Positions 932-51,659 of a DNA stretch of 64,000 nt are shown in pieces; position 1 is the first letter of the stretch, and each line of letters opens with the position of its first letter. Location: the NCBI GenBank assembly GCA_014654705.1, contig JACVZY010000034.1, positions 1 to 64,000 of the forward strand, read 5' to 3'. The position numbers and the translations under genes were made by a program. The notes under the pieces are model-generated. The model searched no databases, was not told where the DNA came from, and saw only the letters and a program-made list of their open reading frames with translations. The DNA comes from Ignavibacteria bacterium. GTDB taxonomy: Bacteria; Bacteroidota; Ignavibacteria; Kapaibacteriales; UBA4661.

Positions 932-3280
932 ATGAAAACTTTTGTTGTTCGACCTCTCTTTATCGTTTTTGCCATACTATTTGGCTGGGAGTACTCTCTT
1001 GCACAAGTTGCGTCCTGCTCCGGTACGGTGAGCGAACATTCCTCAGGTGAGGCGATTATTGGCGCGACTGTTCTGGTGTACCGCGATAGTAGCGGTGTTG
1101 CTGCCGGTTCTGTACTGACGGGCGCACGCACCAATACGTTTGGCTTCTTTTCCCTGCCTCAGTTGGATTTCGGGCGCTATGTGCTTGTGGTGTGTGCGCT
1201 CGGGTACATTATTTCCCCCAAGCCAATAATGATTTCAGCAGAGACAGCTCGCACAAGTATTGTGCTAACGGGAGTACGAAAAAATGTACGAATGGATAGT
1301 CTCACGATTACAGGTAAGCGCTCAGGTCAATCGTTTGCGCCAAGTATCAGCATCGTTGATATTTCGGTGGAAACCGTAAAAAAAATGCCGTCTTTGGGCG
1401 GTGAAGCAGACATCTATCGAACAATTCAACTCATGCCCGGTGTGAAAGTTGCGAATGAGGTTTCCGGCGGTCTCTACATTCGTGGCGGCTCACCGGAGCA
1501 AAATTTGACGTTGCTGGATGGTGTTCCTGTGTATAATCCTCTGCATTTGGGCGGCTTTCTGAGCACATTTAATAGTGATGCCGTAAGCAACATACGCCTT
1601 ATCAAGGGTGCATTTCCGGCAGAATATGGCGGACGTTTATCAAGCGTGATAGACATTACCATGAAAGAAGGCACAAAGGAAAAGATTTCGGCTTCGGGCG
1701 GTGTTTCGCTCCTTGCATCAAGGCTCTTGTTGGAGGGACCGATTGGCGAAAAAGCTAGTTTTATGATTTCCGGGCGGCGTACATACTTAGATTTGTTACT
1801 GGGACTTGTTTCCGATGGTCAATCGCCGGACTATAATTTTCACGATGTCAATGCTAAATTTAACTGGACGTTATCTGATAATGACCGACTCTTTGTGAGC
1901 GGTTATCTTGGTCAAGATTTTCTTGCGCCTCCGCGCAACCCAGGTAACGAGGACGGGCTTTTTTACTCGACGTGGGGGAATCTCACCGGACAAATTCGGT
2001 GGACACACATTTTTTCTCCTACACTCTTTACCAAACTTGCGCTTATTTCTACTTCGTACAATTTCGGGTTAGATACGTACTCCAGAAATCGCATTACAGA
2101 AGCTCGACGGTATCTTTTCGGCATCTCCTCGCGGCTGCAGGATTATGGTGTACGTGCAGAAGCAGAAATATTCCTGCCACAAGGACATAATGTGAAAACG
2201 GGCTTGGAAACAGTCTATCACACGTTCAGAACGGTTGCTGTTGATTCCGTGCCGCGCCCTGATTTCCAACGAAATTTTGCTCAATACTTGTCATCGTGGG
2301 AAACAGCCGCATTCGTTCAAGACGAATGGTCGCCTTCACCGTTCCTAACAACCAACATAGGCGTTCGTTTCTCGCATTTTCAATCGGGAAACTACTTCTT
2401 TGTCGAACCAAGAGTGTCCGGCGTTCTCACTATTTCAGAGCAATTTTCTCTCAATGTAGCAGCGGCAGGTTCTTCGCAATTCCTGCACCTTTTGGCACAG
2501 CCCAATCCCAACATTCTTGTTCCCACCGATGCGTGGTTTCCTTCATCGGAGCGCATACGCCCTTCATATTCGACTCAATACGTCCTCGGTGGGAAATATG
2601 CCAATGCCGATGAGCAACTTGAAATTGCGGCAGAAGTCTATTACAAAACGCTCCAAAACATTTATGACTATCGTGATGCTGTGGCTTCAGGCTTCGTTGT
2701 ACCACTTGAATCGGCAATAACGCTGGGTAATGGCGAAGCATATGGACTGGAAGTATTTCTCCAAAAGAGTATCGGTATTTTCAGTGGATGGATTGGATAT
2801 ACACTTTCTTGGACGAACCGCACGTTCCCTGAAATTAATGGCGGGAAACCATTTTTTCCGCGTTATGACAGGAGGCATGATGTTTCTGCTGTCTTTTCTT
2901 GCACAATTAACGAACATTGGGATTTTTCCGCAACATGGGTGTACGGCACGGGACAAGCCTTTACTATGCCAACAAGCGTAGCAGAGTTGCCCGCAAACCA
3001 CGCATTATCCCCAAACGCCAATAATTCAGCACAAGTACGATATATCTATTCGGAGAGAAATGGCTTTCGGTTACCGCCTTTTCACAAACTGGATATAAAT
3101 TTCACGTATAAATTTCAATGGTTGAGTCTTCCTTTTCAACTTGCTATTAGTGTCTATAATGTGTACAGTCGGCAGAACCCCGATAATGCCTTTCTTTCTT
3201 ATACATCTGAAGGTGGTAAACTGGTTGTACAATCATTATTCCCTATCATTCCCACGCTTGGGCTGCGGTTTACCTTCTGA
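932..3280 (+). CDS. TonB-dependent outer-membrane receptor with carboxypeptidase-like N-domain
   Basis: A 782-residue outer-membrane receptor. A signal peptide ends near residue 25 (YSLAQ). A CarboxypepD_reg-like domain follows (about 28-110, with GEAIIGATVLVYRD and TNTFGFFSLPQLDFGRY). The TonB plug lies at about 150-250 (YRTIQLMPGVKVANEVSGG, YIRGGSPEQNLTLLDGVPVY). The rest is a beta-barrel ending in an aromatic-rich LGLRFTF with terminal Phe, the usual barrel assembly signal. It would import a ligand using TonB energy. Its partner is the DUF4249 lipoprotein upstream, and two T9SS-exported genes (both broken) follow on the same strand. This is the short DUF4249-associated receptor type rather than the 1000-residue SusC type. 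The ligand is not deducible. Confidence 0.9.
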   Translation: MKTFVVRPLFIVFAILFGWEYSLAQVASCSGTVSEHSSGEAIIGATVLVYRDSSGVAAGSVLTGARTNTFGFFSLPQLDFGRYVLVVCALGYIISPKPIMISAETARTSIVLTGVRKNVRMDSLTITGKRSGQSFAPSISIVDISVETVKKMPSLGGEADIYRTIQLMPGVKVANEVSGGLYIRGGSPEQNLTLLDGVPVYNPLHLGGFLSTFNSDAVSNIRLIKGAFPAEYGGRLSSVIDITMKEGTKEKISASGGVSLLASRLLLEGPIGEKASFMISGRRTYLDLLLGLVSDGQSPDYNFHDVNAKFNWTLSDNDRLFVSGYLGQDFLAPPRNPGNEDGLFYSTWGNLTGQIRWTHIFSPTLFTKLALISTSYNFGLDTYSRNRITEARRYLFGISSRLQDYGVRAEAEIFLPQGHNVKTGLETVYHTFRTVAVDSVPRPDFQRNFAQYLSSWETAAFVQDEWSPSPFLTTNIGVRFSHFQSGNYFFVEPRVSGVLTISEQFSLNVAAAGSSQFLHLLAQPNPNILVPTDAWFPSSERIRPSYSTQYVLGGKYANADEQLEIAAEVYYKTLQNIYDYRDAVASGFVVPLESAITLGNGEAYGLEVFLQKSIGIFSGWIGYTLSWTNRTFPEINGGKPFFPRYDRRHDVSAVFSCTINEHWDFSATWVYGTGQAFTMPTSVAELPANHALSPNANNSAQVRYIYSERNGFRLPPFHKLDINFTYKFQWLSLPFQLAISVYNVYSRQNPDNAFLSYTSEGGKLVVQSLFPIIPTLGLRFTF

Positions 3281-3367
3281 CATTGATTTTACTTTATCGG
3301 TGTGGCTACCTCACGCACACCGCTTCAACGCAAAGTTTAATCGTCGCACTTTTTTCTTTAATAACCA

Positions 3368-4147: not shown

Positions 4148-5480
4148 ATGAAAACCATTTTCCTCTGCCTTGCCGTAGCACTCTGCTTTTGGTCATTGCC
4201 TTCAGCCCTTGCGCAACGCCTACAATGGGAGCGTCTGCCCGCCTTTGGCACGGATCCTATACACCTTACGCAGAGTACTTCGCAAGGTACAGTTTTCGCG
4301 TGGTCGGACAGCACTGCTCTTCTGCGCTCTGCCGATAACGGCGCATCGTGGAGCCGCATCATCACAGGGTTTGAGCCACTTCGCAAAAACTCTTCTTCGG
4401 CGAATGAAATCACGGCGCTTGCAGGACAAGATTCCAGTCTTGTCGCTGTTATCACCCGAAGCCAAGTTTTGCTGCGGGGCATTATTCGTTCTGCCACAAG
4501 CGGAGCAGCGTGGATGCCGTTCGGATGGAATCAACCATATAGTACAAATTATTCCGATGGCTTAAATAATTCTCAATTCAGTGGCTTCACCTCCGACGCA
4601 GGGAAATTCTATGCCACCCTCACAACAAGCCTGAGCGGAAGCCTCTACCGTTCCTCAGACGGTGGCGCATCATGGCAAGAGTTGGGCAATCTCGCCCGTG
4701 TTACGCCGAATCGCTCCAGCTCTATGATGTCCGTCGGTGTGCATGGTGATACGATACTGTGCGGTCTGGCATTCCCGCAGAGAACAGTGCTTCGCAGCTT
4801 TGATGCGGGGAGAACATGGGATACTGCTTCCGCAATGCCAAGCGGTGGCTCACCCGATAGAATACTTGTTGCCAAAGGATATGCGCTGGCAAGCAATGGA
4901 AATAGCATAATGACTTCCTTCGATGCCGGAAAAATGTGGCAAAATCGCGCACTGTCTTCGCCGTCCATCCCCAATCTTTCCATTACCGCCATCGCTGCAA
5001 ATGAATCTACGGCGTTTGTGGGGACAACGCAAGGGGTCTTTGTGTCTCGGGATAGCGGAAAAACATGGCAACAAGAAAACGCAGGGCTGGCAAACCAACG
5101 CATTACGGCGCTTGCACTAACCCAAACGGCAGCATTTGTAGGCACGGAAGCAGGAATGTTTCGCACATCCTTGGGGCAAGGTAGCACGGGCGTACCGCTT
5201 GGGTTTGAGCCGTTGCGCGTGGGGGTGTTTCCTAACCCGGCGGTGTTGTTTGTCTCCGTTACCGCAAGCCTACGCACAGCTTCGGCAGTACGAATAAGCC
5301 TGTTCAGTGCAAATAAGCCTGTTCAGTGCAAACGGAAGTAGTGTTTTCAATCGCTACGAATCGGCAAGCGCGGGGGATTGCCAAACAGAAATTGATATAA
5401 GCCATTTGCCCACGGGAGCCTATTTTGTTCGGATGGAAGCGGGTGCTGCGGCATGGGTGGAGAAAATCATCAAGAAGTGA
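4148..5480 (+). pseudogene. BNR/Asp-box propeller T9SS protein frameshifted by a 19-bp duplication
   Basis: The intact part (4148-5341, 397 codons) has a signal peptide ending SALAQ and repeated Asp-box motifs (SADNGASW, SSDGGASW, SFDAGRTW, SFDAGKMW, SRDSGKTW), typical of BNR/VPS10-like beta-propellers secreted by Bacteroidota. A type-A T9SS tail begins at VGVFPNPAVLFVSV but the frame is lost at 5312 and ends at a TAG at 5341. A 19-bp unit is directly repeated at 5293-5332; removing one copy restores the frame to a TGA at 5478-5480 and gives a complete tail (LPTGAYFVRMEAG, then WVEKIIKK). The current product would lack most of its export signal. It may be a recent pseudogene, or a phase-variable locus if the repeat is unstable. 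Confidence 0.8.
5293..5332 (+). repeat. 19-bp direct tandem duplication inside the propeller gene
   Basis: The unit AATAAGCCTGTTCAGTGCA occurs at 5293-5311 and again at 5312-5330, with two further matching bases. The added 19 bp shift the frame by +1. Deleting one copy in silico restores SLFSANGSSVFNRYESA and the rest of a T9SS tail, so the duplication is the lesion. Confidence 0.95.
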
Positions 5481-5521
5481 AACCTAAGGCTCATCAGCCT
5501 TTCAATGGAATGCACCTGAAA

Positions 5522-6022
5522 TTATGATATTGGCGCGTTGCGGTAGCACCGAGCAAACACTGGCGCAATTCCTTCATCCAAAGGAACAAGAATATGCCTG
5601 TGAAAATGTTCACCTGCCTCGCTATGCGAAGGAATAGCAAAGCGCGTTCGCAGGTCGGCAAGGCGAAGCCACTCATATTCGCTATGCTCGTGGGAAATGG
5701 TAACAGCAGACTCGGCGCTAACAATCGCTCCAAAGCAAGGCAGAAAATTCATGGTGTTGCGCATGGCATCGAAATACTGCGCCACAAAGGGCAGCACCCA
5801 AAGTTCTTTGGCGTGTAAGCCCGTTTCTTCTGCAAGTTCGCGGAATGCTGCATCTTGGGGTGTTTCGCCCTCTTCGATGCTACCGGTTACTGGCTGCCAG
5901 ACGTTGGGGAATACCGTTTCCGATGCCGCACGGCGCAGGGCAAGAAACTGCCAGTCATCGCTTCCCGTATCACGCTTGGCGATATGAACTTGCACAATAC
6001 GGACGGCGAAGGTCGTGGTCAT
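5522..6022 (-). CDS. Nudix hydrolase (dATP pyrophosphohydrolase-like)
   Basis: A 166-residue Nudix protein. The Nudix box spans residues 47-69: G47, E53 and the REL-AEE-TG core (61-68) fit GX5EX7REUXEEXGU. Nudix enzymes hydrolyse nucleoside diphosphates linked to another moiety, usually with Mg2+. Length and the SDDWQFLALRRA start resemble NudB/dATP-pyrophosphatase-like members, which can act on dihydroneopterin triphosphate in folate synthesis, but the substrate is not fixed by sequence. It faces the broken propeller gene convergently and lies 11 bp downstream of the ABC permease gene, so it may be cotranscribed with the transporter. Confidence 0.85.
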   Translation of the reverse strand: MTTTFAVRIVQVHIAKRDTGSDDWQFLALRRAASETVFPNVWQPVTGSIEEGETPQDAAFRELAEETGLHAKELWVLPFVAQYFDAMRNTMNFLPCFGAIVSAESAVTISHEHSEYEWLRLADLRTRFAIPSHSEAGEHFHRHILVPLDEGIAPVFARCYRNAPIS

Positions 6023-6033
6023 AGTGGGGTGTG

Positions 6034-6861
6034 TTAAAATTCTTTCCGCGAAAACGAAAATGCCGAGAGCAGAAAGAAGAGTACGCCATACCCAAGCGAA
6101 TTGTAGTACGGAACAGTGTTGGTAACGGTTTTCTCTTGAACGATATTACTGGTGATTTGAGCCATATCCGCCACTTGGGGTGTGAGATGATAGACTGCCG
6201 AAATGAGTGTGCGCCAGAAATCGCTGGTAACGGATTGAAATAACAATTCTTCGCGGCTGAAAAGAAGCGGACTGACGGTATAGACAATCAAAAAGCAAAT
6301 GACCATGCCGCTTACCGACGAGCGCGATTGAATACCAACGTACACCAGCACTCCGTACAATCCCCAAAACGTGACAATAAGCGGAAAGAACGACAGCATA
6401 TAACCGCTTGTCCAGACACCGGTAGCAATGGAGATAATAAGCCATGAGCCGAGCATGAAATAAAGCGTCAGAACCGTTACGACTGCGAAACCACCCAGAA
6501 TCTTGCCCGTCAGCAGCATTGTCCGCGAAAGCGGCTTGGAAAGGAGTAAGTCAATCACGCCTTTGGTCATCATATTCGGCACGAGGTCGGAGGTGATGAT
6601 GATTGCTAAGATAAGTGCAGCATTGAAAAATGCAAAACTGAGACCGCTTTGGAGCGAGCGGAGTTTTTCACGGAGCGCCACGCCAAGCGGGTCGTCTGCG
6701 GTGGGTTGAAGATTGTGAATCTGCTCTTGAAACCCGGAACTGGAGCAATATGCCAGCAGAATCAGAAGTCCTGCGGTCGAAATAAAGAAAAACACCAGAA
6801 AGACTTTCTTGGAAAGCGCTTCGAGGAATGTTTCGCGGATGAGCGCGTAAATTTTAATCAT
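6034..6861 (-). CDS. ABC-2 type transporter permease
   Basis: A 275-residue polytopic membrane protein of the ABC-2 family. The chosen start (MIKIYALIRETFLEALSKKVF) matches the usual short cytoplasmic helix before TM1; a longer in-frame extension to 6939 would translate spacer sequence. Several hydrophobic segments are visible (VFLVFFFISTAGLLILLAY, FAVVTVLTLYFMLGSWLII, LIVTFWGLYGVLVYVGI and a C-terminal YGVLFFLLSAF). The central LVPNMMTKGVIDLLLSKPLSR is a typical ABC-2 permease stretch. It follows its ATPase gene with a 78-bp gap and would form the membrane half of an exporter. The cargo is unknown. Confidence 0.85.
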   Translation of the reverse strand: MIKIYALIRETFLEALSKKVFLVFFFISTAGLLILLAYCSSSGFQEQIHNLQPTADDPLGVALREKLRSLQSGLSFAFFNAALILAIIITSDLVPNMMTKGVIDLLLSKPLSRTMLLTGKILGGFAVVTVLTLYFMLGSWLIISIATGVWTSGYMLSFFPLIVTFWGLYGVLVYVGIQSRSSVSGMVICFLIVYTVSPLLFSREELLFQSVTSDFWRTLISAVYHLTPQVADMAQITSNIVQEKTVTNTVPYYNSLGYGVLFFLLSAFSFSRKEF

Positions 6862-6905
6862 AGTATTGATTGTTCTTGGGTTGTAGATTATGTAGGTCGT
6901 TGACT

Positions 6906-6940
6906 CGTAATTCGTCCTTCCAAATTCGTAATTTCTCAAT
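6906..6940. repeat. Heptanucleotide-periodic repeat in the ABC transporter spacer
   Basis: Consecutive 7-mers on the + strand are CGTAATT (6906), CGTCCTT (6913), CCAAATT (6920), CGTAATT (6927) and TCTCAAT (6934). The two exact copies are 21 bp apart, three heptads. It lies between the ATPase stop and the permease start, so on the transcript it precedes the permease start codon. It resembles short tandemly repeated repetitive (STRR) heptamers known from cyanobacteria. Confidence 0.5.
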
Positions 6941-7872
6941 TACTTCGCCGGAGCAAGGTACTCTTGCTTCTCGCTCATGAGCGCAATAAAGATTTCTTCG
7001 AGTGTACTTTTCTTTGGCGAAAGTGTTGCGAGGAGGCAATTATTCTGACGAAGTACATCAAGAGCCGCGTTCAGTGCTTCCGGTGAAGCGGCGGTCAATT
7101 CAATCTCACGGGTCTCTGCGTTGTATGTCGTCATTCCGGGAAGACTGGCGGGCGGAGTGCCACCGGCGAGGGTGATGATGTACTGGTCGCGGGACTGCGT
7201 CAGTTCGTGAGTGTTGCCTGATTTCACGACTACCCCTTTGCGAAGAATAGCAACGCGGTCGGTGATAAGTTCCACCTCAGAAAGCAAATGCGAGTTCACG
7301 AAAATAGTCGTTCCTTCGCTTTTGAGAACTTCAAGAATCTCGCGTATTTCCATGCGTCCTACGGGGTCAATGCCATCGGTGGGTTCGTCCAGAAACAGCA
7401 AATGCGGGCGGTTCAGGAGTGCTTGCGCCAAGCCGATACGTTGCATCATACCTTTGGAGTAGCGCTGAATTTTGAGTTTGCGCCATTCGGTCATGTTGAC
7501 AAATTCCAAAACCTCATCAATCCTTTTTTGCAAGGTTTTGCCGGACATCCCGCCCAGATTGCCGTAGAATTCCAGCATTTGCTGACCATTCAGATAGAGC
7601 GGAAAACGGTGATTCTCCGGTAAATAGCCGATAAGTTCTTTTGCTTTGAGCGAAGAAATGTCCTGCCCCAAAATGTGGCATGAACCGCTCGTGGGAGCAA
7701 TAATGCCAAGCATGAGCTTTATCATCGTGGTCTTGCCCGCGCCGTTCGGACCCAAGAGACCAAAGATTTCGCCTTGATGCACGTCCAAATCAATGGGTTT
7801 GAGAGCCTCAATGAGTTGCTTGTTATTTTTGTAGGTCTTTGAAAGACCGCGTATTTCGATACAAGTGGTCAT
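6940..7872 (-). CDS. ABC transporter ATP-binding protein
   Basis: A 310-residue ATPase. It has Walker A GPNGAGKT (41-48), signature YSKGMMQRIGLAQ, Walker B LLFLDEPTDGIDP, and an H-loop in IFVNSHLLSEVE. The C-terminal 80 residues after the ATPase core form the extension seen in drug/lipid-export subunits paired with ABC-2 permeases (CcmA/NatA-like). It powers the permease encoded immediately downstream. Two such subunits with two permeases would form the transporter. The substrate cannot be inferred. Confidence 0.92.
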   Translation of the reverse strand: MTTCIEIRGLSKTYKNNKQLIEALKPIDLDVHQGEIFGLLGPNGAGKTTMIKLMLGIIAPTSGSCHILGQDISSLKAKELIGYLPENHRFPLYLNGQQMLEFYGNLGGMSGKTLQKRIDEVLEFVNMTEWRKLKIQRYSKGMMQRIGLAQALLNRPHLLFLDEPTDGIDPVGRMEIREILEVLKSEGTTIFVNSHLLSEVELITDRVAILRKGVVVKSGNTHELTQSRDQYIITLAGGTPPASLPGMTTYNAETREIELTAASPEALNAALDVLRQNNCLLATLSPKKSTLEEIFIALMSEKQEYLAPAK

Positions 7873-7906
7873 GCGTGAAGATTGATGAGTAAGAAATTTT
7901 GAATGG

Positions 7907-8716
7907 TTATGTTCTTTGTTGTTTTTCTTCTTGTTTTGCTTTGTTCCAAAGTTCGTCCATTTCCGCGAGGGTCATAGAATCAAGATTCTGTCCTGCTTCT
8001 CGTGCGATTTCTTCCAAGCGGCGGAATCGTTTCATAAATTTAGCATTGGCATTCTGGAGCGATTGTTCGGCGTTCAGTCCGGCGAAGCGTGAGGCGTTGA
8101 CGATAGAAAAAAGCACATCGCCGAACTCTTCTTCAATCGCCGCTTTGTCCTTTGCTTGCCTCGCGGCGCGAAATTCTGCAAGCTCTTCTTCTACTTTGTT
8201 CCAGACATCTTCGTCGTTGTCCCAGTCAAAGCCTACTGCTGCTACTTTCTCTTGAATCCGATGTGCTCTCAGGAGCGCCGGAAGGTGCTTGGGTACGCCT
8301 TCCAAGACGGAAGTACGACCTTCCTTCATCTTGATTTGCTCCCACGTGCGCTTCACGGCGTCGGGCGAATCGGCGCTGGCATCTCCAAAGACGTGTGGGT
8401 GTCGCGTGACCAACTTCGTAAATTCGCGACCAATAATTTCTTTGATTGAAAAATTCTTGTCTTCTTCTGCAATGACAGCGTTCATCACCACGTGCAGCAG
8501 AATATCACCCAGTTCTTTGCCCAATTCAAGCGAATCACCTGCTTCCGCTGCATCAATGGTCTCATAGACTTCTTCCAGCAAAAGCGGCATGAGCGTCGTA
8601 TGAGTCTGCTTCCTGTCCCAAGGACATTCCTTGCGCAGAACGCGCACCAATTCTACGAAGGCGCGAAAGTGCTCAATTTCGTCGTGGGGTGGGAGAATTG
8701 TAGGAACTGGAACCAT
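7907..8716 (-). CDS. mazG: Nucleoside triphosphate pyrophosphohydrolase MazG
   Basis: A 269-residue all-alpha NTP pyrophosphohydrolase that hydrolyses (d)NTPs to monophosphate and PPi, a house-cleaning activity. It has two MazG repeats. The first carries ECPWDRKQTHTTLMPLLLEE with metal-binding EEVYE and ELGDIL; the second carries EEELAEF and EEEFGDVLFSIVN. The length fits the two-domain bacterial MazG. It starts 34 bp upstream of the ABC ATPase gene on the same strand. Nothing suggests the toxin-antitoxin context in which mazG sits in enterobacteria. Confidence 0.93.
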   Translation of the reverse strand: MVPVPTILPPHDEIEHFRAFVELVRVLRKECPWDRKQTHTTLMPLLLEEVYETIDAAEAGDSLELGKELGDILLHVVMNAVIAEEDKNFSIKEIIGREFTKLVTRHPHVFGDASADSPDAVKRTWEQIKMKEGRTSVLEGVPKHLPALLRAHRIQEKVAAVGFDWDNDEDVWNKVEEELAEFRAARQAKDKAAIEEEFGDVLFSIVNASRFAGLNAEQSLQNANAKFMKRFRRLEEIAREAGQNLDSMTLAEMDELWNKAKQEEKQQRT

Positions 8717-9073
8717 GAAATGTTGTGGATGATGTAGAATGAAATGGCGTAGATGAAAAAGGCTATGTAAACTAGAAAGGGCGACGTATTGCCTTTGTGA
8801 CCTTGGGGTCGAGGTGATTTTTCTGAAATTTCTTTATCCGTTAGAATCCGTGCTATACTGTGCCCCTGTGGCAAGAATGGACGTATGAGTATCAGAAAAT
8901 TTTACCAATTCCTAAAATACGATTTGGAAATTTTGCATTCAAGAGATATTTTTGTAGGCTATGCACAATTTTTGTCGTGTGACGGGTATCACATTACAAA
9001 AACTGCACAGAAGTCTTTTAGCCATAGACGAAAACAACTCAATATCGTTTAACTGTTTAATGTAGGCACAACC
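8717..9073. other. Divergent intergenic region mazG / rplM
   Basis: This 357-bp AT-rich region should hold the promoters for mazG (-) and for the ribosomal operon (+). A TATACT at 8854-8859 is the best visible -10-like element for the + strand; no convincing -35 is spaced correctly. A 55-codon frame at 8885-9052 has no family resemblance and no ribosome binding site and is probably chance. No L13 autoregulatory leader was recognised. Confidence 0.4.
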
Positions 9074-47944: not shown

Positions 47945-49417
47945 ATGGCAACAACAACCAAAAAAGCTCCGGCAAAAAAAGCAGCAAAACCTGCAGCTAA
48001 AGTCGTAGCAAAAGCAGCCGCTAAACCGGCAGCAAAAAACGGTGTCCATAAAAATGGCACACACACCAACGGCGCAGCAAAAGTAGCTGCAAAACCAGCA
48101 GGAAAAGCAGCTATTCCCGCGAAAAAAGGCAAAGGCAGCTTTAGCGAAGTTCCGGGCAAATATTGCGTCCGCGACATCGGTCTTGCCGAAGAAGGTCGTA
48201 AACTCATTCAATGGGCAGAATCGCGTATGCCCGTGCTGATGCACATCCGTGATACCTACAAAAAATCGCAGCCGCTCAAAGGCTTGCGTCTTGCAGGTTC
48301 GTTGCACGTAACCAAAGAAACAGCAGTACTTGTAGAGACATTCGCGGCTCTCGGCGCGGAAGTGTCTTGGTCGGGCTGCAACCCGCTTTCTACCAACGAC
48401 CCCGTTGCTGCGGCTCTTGCAAAAGGCGGCATTTCTATCTTTGCATGGTATGGCAATCACGAAGATTTCTACTGGTGTATTGAGCGCACGATTGATCTCA
48501 AGCCAAACTTGACGCTTGACGATGGTTGCGACCTCATCAACACCGTACACGAGAAATACGCAGATTATGCTCGTAAAGAAGTTATTGGCGGCACCGAAGA
48601 AACTACGACCGGTGTTCAGCGCCTTCGCGCTCGCGCAGCAGCAGGCAAACTCTACTACCCTGTGTATGCCGTGAATGACGCTATCACCAAATGGGATTTT
48701 GATAACGTATATGGTACCGGTCAATCCACGCTGGACGGTATTCTTCGTGCTACTTCCGTCATGCTTGCCGGTAAAACATTCGTTGTTGCCGGGCACGGAC
48801 ATTGCGGACAGGGCGTTGCAAAACGCGCTAAAGGCATGGGGTCCAATATCATTATTACCGAAGTAAAAGCTACGTCGGCAATTAAAGGTATTTTGGAAGG
48901 CTACCGCGTTATGTCTATGGACGATGCGGCTAAAGAAGGCGATATCTTTTGCACCGCGACCGGCGTCAAAGACATCATCCGCAAACGCCACTTCCTTTCG
49001 ATGAAAGACGGCGCTATCGTTTGCAACACCGGTCACTACGATGCGGAAATCAATCTTGAAGAGTTGGCTTCCATTTCCAAAAGCAAGCGTACCATTCGCC
49101 CGAACTGCGAAGAATACACGCTCAAAAACGGCAACAAAATTTTCGTTTTGGCAGAAGGTCGCCTCGTGAACTTGGCTGCTGCTGAAGGGCACCCGTCGGA
49201 AGTGATGGATATGTCTTTCTCTAATCAGCTTATGTGTCATCTCAAATTGGCTGAAGCATACAAAGCAGGCAAGAAACTTCCGAACCAAGTTCTTGACATT
49301 GACGAGTCGCAAGATGAATTTATCGCTGAAACAAAGCTCAGAACAATGGGTATGTCTATGGATAAACTCACAAAAGAGCAGCTTTCGTACATCAACGACT
49401 ATAACGCAGGCACCTAA
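47945..49417 (+). CDS. ahcY: S-adenosylhomocysteinase with Lys/Ala-rich N-terminal tail
   Basis: A 490-residue enzyme that splits S-adenosylhomocysteine to adenosine and homocysteine. Core marks: LAGSLHVTKETAVLVETFAALGAEV, NPLSTNDPVAAAL, NHEDFYWCIERT, GTGQSTLDGILRATSVM and the NAD-binding VVAGHGHCGQGVAKR. The end DKLTKEQLSYINDYNAGT fits the family except that the usual C-terminal Lys-Tyr is not present. Residues 1-64 are an extension rich in Lys, Ala and Pro (KKAPAKKAAKPAAK, AAAKPAAK, VAAKPAGK), resembling histone H1 or bacterial HU tails. A terminator follows the gene. Confidence 0.95.
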   Translation: MATTTKKAPAKKAAKPAAKVVAKAAAKPAAKNGVHKNGTHTNGAAKVAAKPAGKAAIPAKKGKGSFSEVPGKYCVRDIGLAEEGRKLIQWAESRMPVLMHIRDTYKKSQPLKGLRLAGSLHVTKETAVLVETFAALGAEVSWSGCNPLSTNDPVAAALAKGGISIFAWYGNHEDFYWCIERTIDLKPNLTLDDGCDLINTVHEKYADYARKEVIGGTEETTTGVQRLRARAAAGKLYYPVYAVNDAITKWDFDNVYGTGQSTLDGILRATSVMLAGKTFVVAGHGHCGQGVAKRAKGMGSNIIITEVKATSAIKGILEGYRVMSMDDAAKEGDIFCTATGVKDIIRKRHFLSMKDGAIVCNTGHYDAEINLEELASISKSKRTIRPNCEEYTLKNGNKIFVLAEGRLVNLAAAEGHPSEVMDMSFSNQLMCHLKLAEAYKAGKKLPNQVLDIDESQDEFIAETKLRTMGMSMDKLTKEQLSYINDYNAGT

Positions 49418-49446
49418 GTTGTTTTCGTTGCATAGCATATAAAAAC

Positions 49447-49489
49447 TTGAGGCGGTTAAGCATCAACGCTTGCTGCCTCAACTTTTTTT
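49447..49489 (+). terminator. Intrinsic terminator after ahcY
   Basis: TTGAGGC (49447-49453) pairs with GCCTCAA (49475-49481), an inner TTAAGC/GCTTG pairing, then C and seven T. It isolates ahcY from the PYP operon. Confidence 0.85.
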
Positions 49490-49518
49490 GGTACTTTCGC
49501 AATTGGCATTTATTTTTT
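49487..49518 (+). promoter_or_regulatory. Bacteroidota-type promoter of the PYP operon
   Basis: TTTG at 49487-49490, a 20-nt spacer, then TATTTTTT at 49511-49518, close to the Bacteroidota consensus TTTG / TAnnTTTG. It overlaps the tail of the ahcY terminator and lies 29 bp upstream of the first operon ATG. Prediction from sequence pattern only. Confidence 0.55.
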
Positions 49519-49546
49519 TCGTCATATCAATAACCAAGGAAATGTT

Positions 49547-49726
49547 ATGGATACAGAGCTGGTTACAACAGTTATTCAGGGCTTCGATGAGCAACTAAGC
49601 GCCTTGTACGCAGAGAAAGAGCTTTTGGAAAAAGAAATCGGTATTTCAAGCGCTGAAGATGTTATCGCAATGATTCGCAGTCTTGAAGAGCAGTTGAATT
49701 CTCTCTATGCAGAACCAAGAGCATAA
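49547..49726 (+). CDS. 59-residue coiled-coil protein upstream of pyp
   Basis: A 59-residue protein, no family recognised. AAGGAAA 6 nt before the ATG is a good ribosome binding site. It is acidic and helical, with an internal repeat: EQLSALYAE at 15-23 and EQLNSLYAE at 48-56, 33 residues apart, linked by EKELLEKEIGISSAEDVIAMIRS. This suggests two alike helices folding as a hairpin or dimer. It lies 51 bp upstream of the PYP gene on the same strand and behind the same promoter, so it may be a PYP partner; that link is inferred from context. Confidence 0.75.
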   Translation: MDTELVTTVIQGFDEQLSALYAEKELLEKEIGISSAEDVIAMIRSLEEQLNSLYAEPRA

Positions 49727-49777
49727 CACGGAAATTTACGATTTTACGAATAACCTTTTTACCACAGGAGAATCACT

Positions 49778-50149
49778 ATGACGAGTTTTGTTCCTGATAG
49801 TGTTTTGCAGAAACTTGCAGCACTTCACCGCACAGAAGCAGATACTCTGGATTTCGGCGTTGTAAAGGTGGATGACGCAGGCGTTATCCAACTTTTCAAT
49901 AAATATGAATCTGAACTAGCCGGAATTGCACCGAACGATGCCATTGGCAAAAATTACTTTACCCAATTAGCTCCTTGCACCAATAACCGCCTTTTCTTCG
50001 GACGCTTCAAAGACGGTGTTGCTGCTAACAATCTCAACGTTGCTCTTCCCTATACCTTCACCTATAAAATGCGCCCCACCAACGTGCAGATTCACCTATA
50101 TCGCGATGGAGCAACAAAGACCAACTGGATATTTGTCAAAAAACGTTGA
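49778..50149 (+). CDS. pyp: Photoactive yellow protein (PAS-fold blue-light sensor)
   Basis: A 123-residue PYP, two shorter than the Halorhodospira halophila protein (125). AGGAG precedes the ATG by 8 nt. Matches to that protein as recalled: GKNYFTQLAPCTNN against GKNFFKDVAPCTDS, GRFKDGVAANNLN against GKFKEGVASGNLN, and FTYKMRPTNVQIH against FDYQMTPTKVKVH. Cys67 corresponds to Cys69, which binds p-coumarate by a thioester; Glu44 corresponds to Glu46, which hydrogen-bonds the chromophore. Tyr42 is Phe40 here and Arg52 is Ile50. The protein should bleach and recover in blue light with shifted absorption. The ligase gene downstream supplies the chromophore step. Confidence 0.93.
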   Translation: MTSFVPDSVLQKLAALHRTEADTLDFGVVKVDDAGVIQLFNKYESELAGIAPNDAIGKNYFTQLAPCTNNRLFFGRFKDGVAANNLNVALPYTFTYKMRPTNVQIHLYRDGATKTNWIFVKKR

Positions 50150-50187
50150 TTCAGACCTTGACGCAATAATGTAAATGTATTATTCCT

Positions 50188-50220
50188 GCGGCTGTCGGAC
50201 TTCTCCGATAGCCGCTTTTT
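50188..50220 (+). terminator. Strong terminator between pyp and the ligase gene
   Basis: GCGGCTGTCGGA (50188-50199) pairs with TCCGATAGCCGC (50204-50215), one G-T wobble, CTTC tetraloop, then TTTTT. Most pyp transcripts probably stop here. The ligase gene starts 18 bp later, so it would be read by leak-through, giving far more PYP than enzyme. Confidence 0.92.
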
Positions 50221-50237
50221 GCATACAGAGCAAATTT

Positions 50238-51659
50238 ATGCCGCATCACTATTCACTTTGGCAGAAACGCCTTCGCGAGCGCCTTTTCGAGCGGGCGTAC
50301 CCGCTTTGGGTGGACAGCGAGGGCGTGCTTCCTGCGGCATCTTTGTGGTATCAGATGCGAGAGCGTTTACAGTTACTGCGCGATGCAGAAATTGATGCCG
50401 GAGACCGCATTGTACTTCAGCTTCCTGTTCATCGCGATTATCTTGCATGGATGTTTGCTGCGCTTTGGCAGGGCTGCACCGTCGCACTTGCCCCTCCTGC
50501 AAGCGATGCTCAGGCTTTAGCGATATTCTTTTCTGCGAAGGCAGTGATAAATGAAAACGGTCTGAGGAAATATGATTCAGAGGAATCTATTGCAACGCCT
50601 GATATTTGCTTGCTTTTGGCGAGTTCCGGTACTTCCGGTACGCCACGCTGGATTGCCTTGTCGGAGCGCAATATTTTTAGCGTTATTGACAGCCATATGC
50701 CGATTCTGAATTTGGTGGATGGGCATGAAAGCTCCTACAGTGCCGCACGGGTACTGTCCCTTCTGCCGCTTCATCATGCGTTTGGCTTAGTCATTGATTT
50801 TTTCGCAGCCTTTTTTGCCGGAGCCGAAATTGTCCGTGATAATAGCGGTGGGCGCGATATTCAGCAGATTCTTCGCTTGGCAGAGAATCATGGTATTACG
50901 CACTGTTCGTTTGTGCCGCTTCTAGTCAAGCGCCTGGTGGCGCTGGCGGAGGGACAGGCTTTCTTGCGCAGTTTGCAAGGAGGCGTTATCGGTGGTGCGC
51001 CTGTGAACAGCGACCTTGCTAGATTCCTTCGCACAACTCGTTTGCGAGTGGGCTACGGGCAAACGGAAGCATCGCCCGGAATCACGCTTGGAGAGCCGGG
51101 CGTGTGGCAGGAACATTATTTGGGACAGACAATTGGCTGCGAAACCCGCATGAACACTGATGGCGTGCTAGAGTTTTGCGGCGAAAATGCGCACATCGGA
51201 TTATGGACGGAACAAGGTTTGGTGCGATATACAGCAGAGCGGTGGGTGAATACGGGCGATTACGTAAAAGCAAGCACCGATACAACAGCCAAAGGATATA
51301 TTTTTGTTGGGCGTGCTGACGATACATTCAAACTTGCTAATGGGCGCTTTATTCCTGTGCCAGAGTGGGAAATGATGCTCCGAAGTCGCTTAGAAGGTTG
51401 CACGGAAGTAATGATTTTTTCGCACGATGGTGAGCGTTGTACTGTTTATCTTGCCTTTAGCAGTGGGGTTCCGATGCAGACAATCGAACAACTACGAAAG
51501 TCTGTGCTCAAATACTTGCCAATACCGAACGATTTGCTTGATGAGGTGCGTATTATTCCACTTGATAAATGGCTGTACACGCCGAAAGGCAGTACGAATC
51601 GGAGCGCAATGAGAGAATATGCTTCGTCCGACAAATCTTCCCCCATAAATCAACTATGA
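50238..51659 (+). CDS. Adenylate-forming ligase, probable p-coumarate-CoA ligase for PYP
   Basis: A 473-residue ANL-family enzyme. ATP-binding loop LLASSGTSGTPRW (127-138), LLPLHHAFGL (175-184), VGYGQTEASPG (271-281), NTGD with D341, and GRADDTFKLANGR (358-370) are the family motifs. Placement after pyp matches known PYP clusters, where a p-coumarate-CoA ligase activates the chromophore. Position A10 reads TPKGSTNRSAM (448-458); the usual P-x-G-K lysine aligns with Ser452, so catalysis may differ or Lys450 may substitute. No tyrosine ammonia-lyase gene is in the window, so the p-coumarate source is elsewhere or external. The 3' end overlaps the convergent FkbM gene by 6 bp. Confidence 0.82.
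   Translation: MPHHYSLWQKRLRERLFERAYPLWVDSEGVLPAASLWYQMRERLQLLRDAEIDAGDRIVLQLPVHRDYLAWMFAALWQGCTVALAPPASDAQALAIFFSAKAVINENGLRKYDSEESIATPDICLLLASSGTSGTPRWIALSERNIFSVIDSHMPILNLVDGHESSYSAARVLSLLPLHHAFGLVIDFFAAFFAGAEIVRDNSGGRDIQQILRLAENHGITHCSFVPLLVKRLVALAEGQAFLRSLQGGVIGGAPVNSDLARFLRTTRLRVGYGQTEASPGITLGEPGVWQEHYLGQTIGCETRMNTDGVLEFCGENAHIGLWTEQGLVRYTAERWVNTGDYVKASTDTTAKGYIFVGRADDTFKLANGRFIPVPEWEMMLRSRLEGCTEVMIFSHDGERCTVYLAFSSGVPMQTIEQLRKSVLKYLPIPNDLLDEVRIIPLDKWLYTPKGSTNRSAMREYASSDKSSPINQL

Follow-up and report, generated by a model that had tools for sequence, protein, structure and literature searches.

A small helical-hairpin protein family genetically coupled to one group of photoactive yellow proteins

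Among the described systems, the pyp-pCL-TAL operon of Halorhodospira halophila is close to the locus reported here, since, in the available text of PMC12826048, it likewise combines a single-domain photoactive yellow protein (PYP) with a CoA ligase gene nearby. However, the window studied here, which is the whole 64,000-nucleotide stretch of contig JACVZY010000034.1 from an Ignavibacteria bacterium (GCA_014654705.1), differs from that operon in that a gene for a small helical protein, here called REP, stands before pyp. No such small protein is found in Table 2 of PMC12826048, which covers 113 predicted operons, and the main text of that paper contains no mention of hypothetical, coiled or unknown-function proteins. 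Another study (PMC9664959) reported, in its available sections, that Leptospira PYPs always adjoin chemoreceptors devoid of sensory domains, and compared this PYP-chemoreceptor pair with CetA/CetB of Campylobacter. The Leptospira PYPs are presumably of the same kind as that of the window, and the available Results and Discussion leave the gene between chemoreceptor and pyp undescribed; REP may supply the link that this scheme lacks. Natural PYP fusions have also been described, as in the multi-domain proteins PYP-PHY-HisKA, MCP-PYP and PYP-V4R (PMC12826048, available part). Within the section of that paper devoted to PYP fusions, neither a hairpin nor an array is among the partners, whereas the REP arrays reported below end in PYP-like domains without Cys69. 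The REP repeat family is undescribed, and no paper on it was among the matches listed for the open-access literature (supplements excluded).

In the window, REP is encoded on the forward strand at 49547-49726, an assignment supported by the open reading frame (ORF), the family profile, the structural model and purifying selection. As the initial annotation had described, this ORF encodes 59 residues carrying the EQLxxLYAE motif twice, 33 residues apart, namely EQLSALYAE at residues 15-23 (49589-49615) and EQLNSLYAE at residues 48-56 (49688-49714), and the ribosome binding site it had noted was recovered as AAGGA (49536-49540), six bases before the ATG start codon. Only 51 bases separate the REP stop codon from the pyp start. 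A terminator-like hairpin with a T-run follows ahcY at 49447-49490 (-20.1 kcal/mol, z -5.1), and a terminator hairpin with a T-run follows pyp at 50188-50220 (-23.3 kcal/mol, z -7.0), both on the forward strand; a terminator consensus scan lists the latter, together with a weaker one inside pyp, and not the former. Since these hairpins and T-runs flank both genes, REP and pyp look like one two-gene, terminator-bounded unit. The earlier statement that REP is the first gene after the PYP promoter therefore stands in part: the upstream hairpin and T-run part REP from ahcY, but a scan for sigma-70-type promoter consensus gave no match for the unit, so that its promoter is presumed. Additionally, mobile or phage cargo was rejected because searches of plasmid and phage records gave no match, as was a structured RNA, given that no Rfam match was obtained in 49300-50300.

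The helical nature proposed for the protein agrees with its AlphaFold model, in which helices 4-31 and 36-55 form an antiparallel hairpin (mean pLDDT 88, pTM 0.53). It had also been noted that no family was recognised, and indeed no Pfam or NCBIfam model reached its curated cut-off for the window REP or for 19 further members; the best score of the window REP was 12.5 bits against a cut-off of 28.6 (HMMR_C). A known sequence or fold was likewise rejected, the best PDB profile match having an E-value of 1.1 and the best Foldseek match one of 4.2. Neither an MCPsignal nor a HAMP domain was detected in the window REP or in the members of the 20-row family alignment, and in the 1266-aa array described below a HAMP match stayed below its cut-off (22.6 versus 25 bits).

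The neighbouring gene (49778-50149, forward strand) encodes 123 residues, and its product is, from its sequence, a PYP with a predicted blue-light photocycle. It matches a PDB PYP at E 1.2e-27 and TIGR02373 at 125.3 bits, which is below the curated cut-off of 143.05; this model matched only 20% of the PYP homologues in PMC9664959, according to its available text. The alignment indicated that the equivalents of Cys69, the p-coumarate attachment site, and of Glu46 are both kept, and that Phe takes the place of Tyr42; the Cys69 equivalent is likewise present at all 27 loci with adjacent or fused REP. The Y42F substitution is natural, the five other aligned PYPs of the same genus having Tyr, and Phe42 is a known natural variant, found in 8.9% of 984 homologues in the available part of PMC12826048. 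The gene behind the terminator (50238-51659, forward strand; PF00501) encodes an AMP-forming CoA ligase, a candidate p-coumarate:CoA ligase that shares 38.6-41.0% identity over 470-485 aa with ligases adjoining PYP or REP at seven other loci. Its longest ORF starts at 50175, where it would overlap the terminator behind pyp, and translation more likely begins with the ATG at 50238. Two genes assigned at family level to the aromatic lyases are found elsewhere in the window's genome.

A search of 99 genomes, comprising that of the window and those of its relatives, gave clear REP matches (E 2e-11 or better) only within the genus, namely in the genome of the window and in G002-G007, six of the seven others; every other match had an E-value of 0.08 or weaker. 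Thus, 7 of 8 genomes of the genus carry REP, each time directly upstream of pyp, which was confirmed in all seven, and the absence of the gene next to pyp in related genomes, which the initial annotation had named as evidence against its proposal, was not observed. Neither REP nor pyp was found in the remaining genome of the genus (G001) or in two genomes of the same family (G008 and G009). The residues E15, Q16, L17, Y21 and E23 are invariant in the seven members of the genus. Over a 41-codon core of six orthologues, pS was 0.73-1.14 in 14 of 15 pairs and 0.45 in the closest pair, pN was 0.07-0.29, and codon position 3 was the most changed in all 15 pairs. Because of this low pN relative to pS and the prevalence of third-position changes, REP is a real gene under strong purifying selection.

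Beyond the genus, PYP loci were collected by scanning genomes with an alignment of diverse PYPs, and the best 80 of the 154 relatives obtained were kept, so that more distant PYPs lie outside the sample. Ten members were used to build a REP profile, which after iteration was compared with all 13,283 six-frame ORFs (at least 25 residues) of these loci; 27 ORFs scored below E 1e-3, all of them beside or fused to pyp. One further ORF, in L060, was counted as REP by position and motif at E 0.28, giving 28 REP ORFs, adjacent or fused, in 27 of these best 80 loci. The sole other match among the 13,283 ORFs had an E-value of 6.1, and the same ORFs, reversed or shuffled, returned nothing better than E 0.91. 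Since all 27 profile matches lie at pyp and the controls are empty below that value, the family is more than a product of chance. In 22 of the 27 loci, REP precedes pyp in the same orientation. Of the remaining five, L042 and L064 have it downstream of pyp, L071 has it on the other strand, and L048 and L049 carry it as a fusion. Two REP-PYP pairs stand in tandem in L056. According to record titles and tree labels, the REP loci belong to Kapabacteria/Ignavibacteria and other Bacteroidota-type bacteria, Spirochaetota (Leptospiraceae), Bdellovibrionota, Planctomycetota, Gemmatimonadota, Myxococcota and Verrucomicrobiota. In the second motif, Q49, L50 and Y54 are invariant across the 20-row alignment. 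The window protein has the hairpin repeat, the QL..LY motif and the position at PYP (beside or fused) by which the family is defined, and is its minimal member, with a single predicted hairpin. When the 27 REP genomes were searched whole, a further locus was found only in G440, and five of them gave no profile match at E 0.01, which indicates that the sensitivity of the profile is limited and that divergent members are missed.

REP and PYP are also joined in single proteins, and REP precedes the PYP domain in every fusion seen. In two Oligoflexus records (L048 and L049), a hairpin is N-terminal to a PYP carrying Cys69. The model of the L049 fusion (pTM 0.62) shows helices 26-51 and 58-77, a block with a pLDDT of about 75-81, connected to a PYP fold by a linker of poor definition, and the packing of the hairpin against PYP is not fixed in it. 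At its N-terminus, the L045 PYP has a stretch that can be aligned with a portion of the hairpin of L049; the identity is 52% over 172 aa, a figure that takes in the PYP. As read from the sequence, this hairpin fusion (L045:3584-4363) was apparently truncated by a zinc-finger-rich segment resembling a transposase. Additionally, four arrays of REP repeats end in a PYP-like domain (L058, 587-aa ORF; L163, 1266 aa; L164, 807 aa; L165, 410 aa), in which residues 42, 46 and 69 are lost, so that the chromophore cysteine is absent. In the profile search, the L163 array (4922-8719, forward strand) gave 17 REP domain hits. Immediately after three of the arrays (L058, L163 and L164) come one or two true pyp genes. 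In L163, Ser replaces Cys69 in the PYP-like domain, and two intact pyp ORFs follow at 8818 and 9377.

The distribution of REP follows the phylogeny of PYP. In a tree of 121 columns, whose bootstrap had not settled and which included 80 PYPs, that of the window and the PYP-like domains (the array domains having long branches and an unsure placement), 47 of the 80 PYPs fall on one side of a branch (97/93), and none of these has REP in its locus. The other 33 loci, like the window, are all REP-linked: REP is adjacent or fused in 27, one has the truncated fusion of L045, and five have REP elsewhere in the genome (L050, at about 4.3 kb from pyp, L057, L059, L061 and L063). Fifty genomes without an adjacent REP were searched whole, of which 44 represent the REP-less PYP group (three of its 47 loci, L083, L085 and L087, were left out of this search), and REP was found in none of these 44 at E 0.01 or better. 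The resulting comparison, 33 of 33 versus 0 of 44, is composed of observations that are not independent. The group split reflects few evolutionary changes. In two further samples, the same association was followed genome by genome. In a sample of 296 genomes of the window's phylum, seven have a strong PYP; the profile finds REP in five of them, a Salinibacter query in G282, and reading of the ORF before pyp revealed it in G364 (L029). In the Leptospiraceae-type family, which served as a query-independent test, REP was profile-scored in five of 8 genomes and a sixth (G430, L046) has it beside pyp; all six have PYP, and G448 and G449 have neither gene. In the Salinibacter-type genomes, REP adjoins a CoA ligase at about 180-186 kb from pyp.

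Therefore, within the genomes searched, REP occurs only where the REP-linked kind of PYP occurs, and it is not a partner of every PYP, because it is missing from the PYP group to which Halomonas, Idiomarina and their relatives belong. The REP-linked group presumably corresponds to "clade B" of PMC9664959. By thresholds set for this analysis, 27 PYP positions differ between the two groups, for example (window residues) Asn at 70 and 116 in 34 of 34 sequences and Thr at 95 in 33 of 34; these positions may mark an interface or reflect only common descent. The identities of REP and PYP showed no correlation (Spearman 0.09, with 508 of 2000 permutations as high) across units that are short and partly non-equivalent. 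The same-genus co-occurrence, the contrast between the two PYP groups and the gene fusions bear out the coupling to PYP proposed initially, and this genetic coupling is well supported in one PYP group.

Some REP loci also contain chemotaxis genes. A motif scan located MCP genes immediately ahead of REP in L043 and L044, where the arrangement resembles that described in the available part of PMC9664959, and in the flanks of L039, L047 and L062; it also flagged an ORF in L051, and nothing in the 53 loci where REP is not adjacent. Pfam confirmed the MCP in L039, L044, L047 and L062 and identified a gene for an Hpt and HATPase protein before the L048 fusion. The genes tested beside REP in L041, L042, L067 and L071 are not chemotaxis genes, and fewer than half of the REP loci have such neighbours. 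In the window's genus, all eight genomes, the PYP-less G001 among them, contain 25-51 MCP matches each; this richness, present with or without PYP, is permissive only.

REP is a strong candidate partner of PYP, as it accompanies one PYP branch in the genomes examined and is sometimes fused to it, and the family is probably a dedicated partner of this large PYP group, acting as an adaptor or scaffold toward output. We infer from the sequences that REP may bind PYP physically and, as the initial annotation suggested, contribute to signal output, perhaps to chemoreceptors. The hairpin would bind PYP in a light-dependent manner, presumably at the beta-sheet face that unfolding of the N-terminal cap would expose in the signalling state, a surface to which a helical hairpin could plausibly bind; the hairpin or hairpin array could then present PYP to the output, with chemoreceptors and CheA-like kinases as the best candidates. 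Points that weigh against this reading are the unfixed packing in the fusion model, the lack of correlation between REP and PYP identities, the five loci in which REP is apart from the sampled pyp, the minority share of chemotaxis neighbours among REP loci and the richness of the window's genus in MCPs regardless of PYP. A more far-reaching version, which we hold only tentatively, is that REP is the long-sought signalling partner of a PYP group present in at least seven phyla, in which the hairpin would dock on the photo-uncovered beta-sheet and the arrays would be light-gated scaffolds where a true PYP displaces, or pairs with, the built-in PYP mimic, feeding chemoreceptor arrays. Alternatively, REP could be a constitutive scaffold or photocycle tuner that clusters PYP or slows its recovery and relays no light signal. 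Multi-hairpin arrays, some of which end in a PYP-like domain and have one or two true pyp genes behind them, do suggest multi-PYP assembly; however, the single-hairpin proteins of the window's genus would, at their size, need to self-associate in order to cluster PYP, and the chemotaxis genes near several loci suggest an output, which makes this explanation rather unlikely.

The ligases would fit another role, that of a maturation factor holding apo-PYP open or bringing it to the p-coumarate:CoA ligase without relaying a signal. Such a role was kept under consideration because the ligase behind pyp in the window resembles those at REP or PYP elsewhere, and related ligases occur beside one or the other in several phyla, the Salinibacter-type REP adjoining one far from pyp. 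Nevertheless, it is quite improbable, since a chromophore would not have to be loaded onto the PYP-like domains of the arrays, which have lost residues 42, 46 and 69, a protein with as many as 17 repeat hits does not resemble a loading factor, and the other PYP group, which has chromophore genes too, manages without REP. It is very unlikely that REP is only a hitch-hiking neighbour, or that its matches are unrelated look-alike coiled coils. False matches do arise, as in G333, one of the 296 genomes sampled, which has no PYP and whose match was counted false because it sits in an apparent alanyl-tRNA synthetase (L120, read from sequence), and the few evolutionary changes behind the PYP group split also leave room for this explanation; on the other hand, the reversed and shuffled controls were empty, and the REP-PYP pair persists across phyla amid changing neighbours, is lost together and has been fused repeatedly. 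For REP as a dedicated partner, the question left on the halophila PYP by PMC13250908, in its available text, becomes directly testable in the REP-linked group with two short genes, although REP does not answer it for the PYPs of the REP-less group. A REP-PYP pair could also yield a compact light-dependent binding pair.

Several minor features were observed in individual loci. The REPs of L052, L053, L054 and L056 seemingly have in common a strand-like C-terminal stretch, e.g. IEDDKPVLRATW, which is absent from the window REP, and the Leptospira-type REPs of L041, L043, L044 and L067 have a common N-terminal extension (around SPVYWINEY) before the repeats. In L067, the REP-PYP pair is closely preceded by an adenylate/guanylate cyclase gene of opposite orientation (2057-3283, reverse strand). 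Finally, according to the available text of PMC9664959, PYPs with Cys69 and changes at both positions 42 and 46 were never found; in the alignment, the PYP of L052 and the first PYP of L056 have Val at 42 and Gln at 46, with Cys69 kept.
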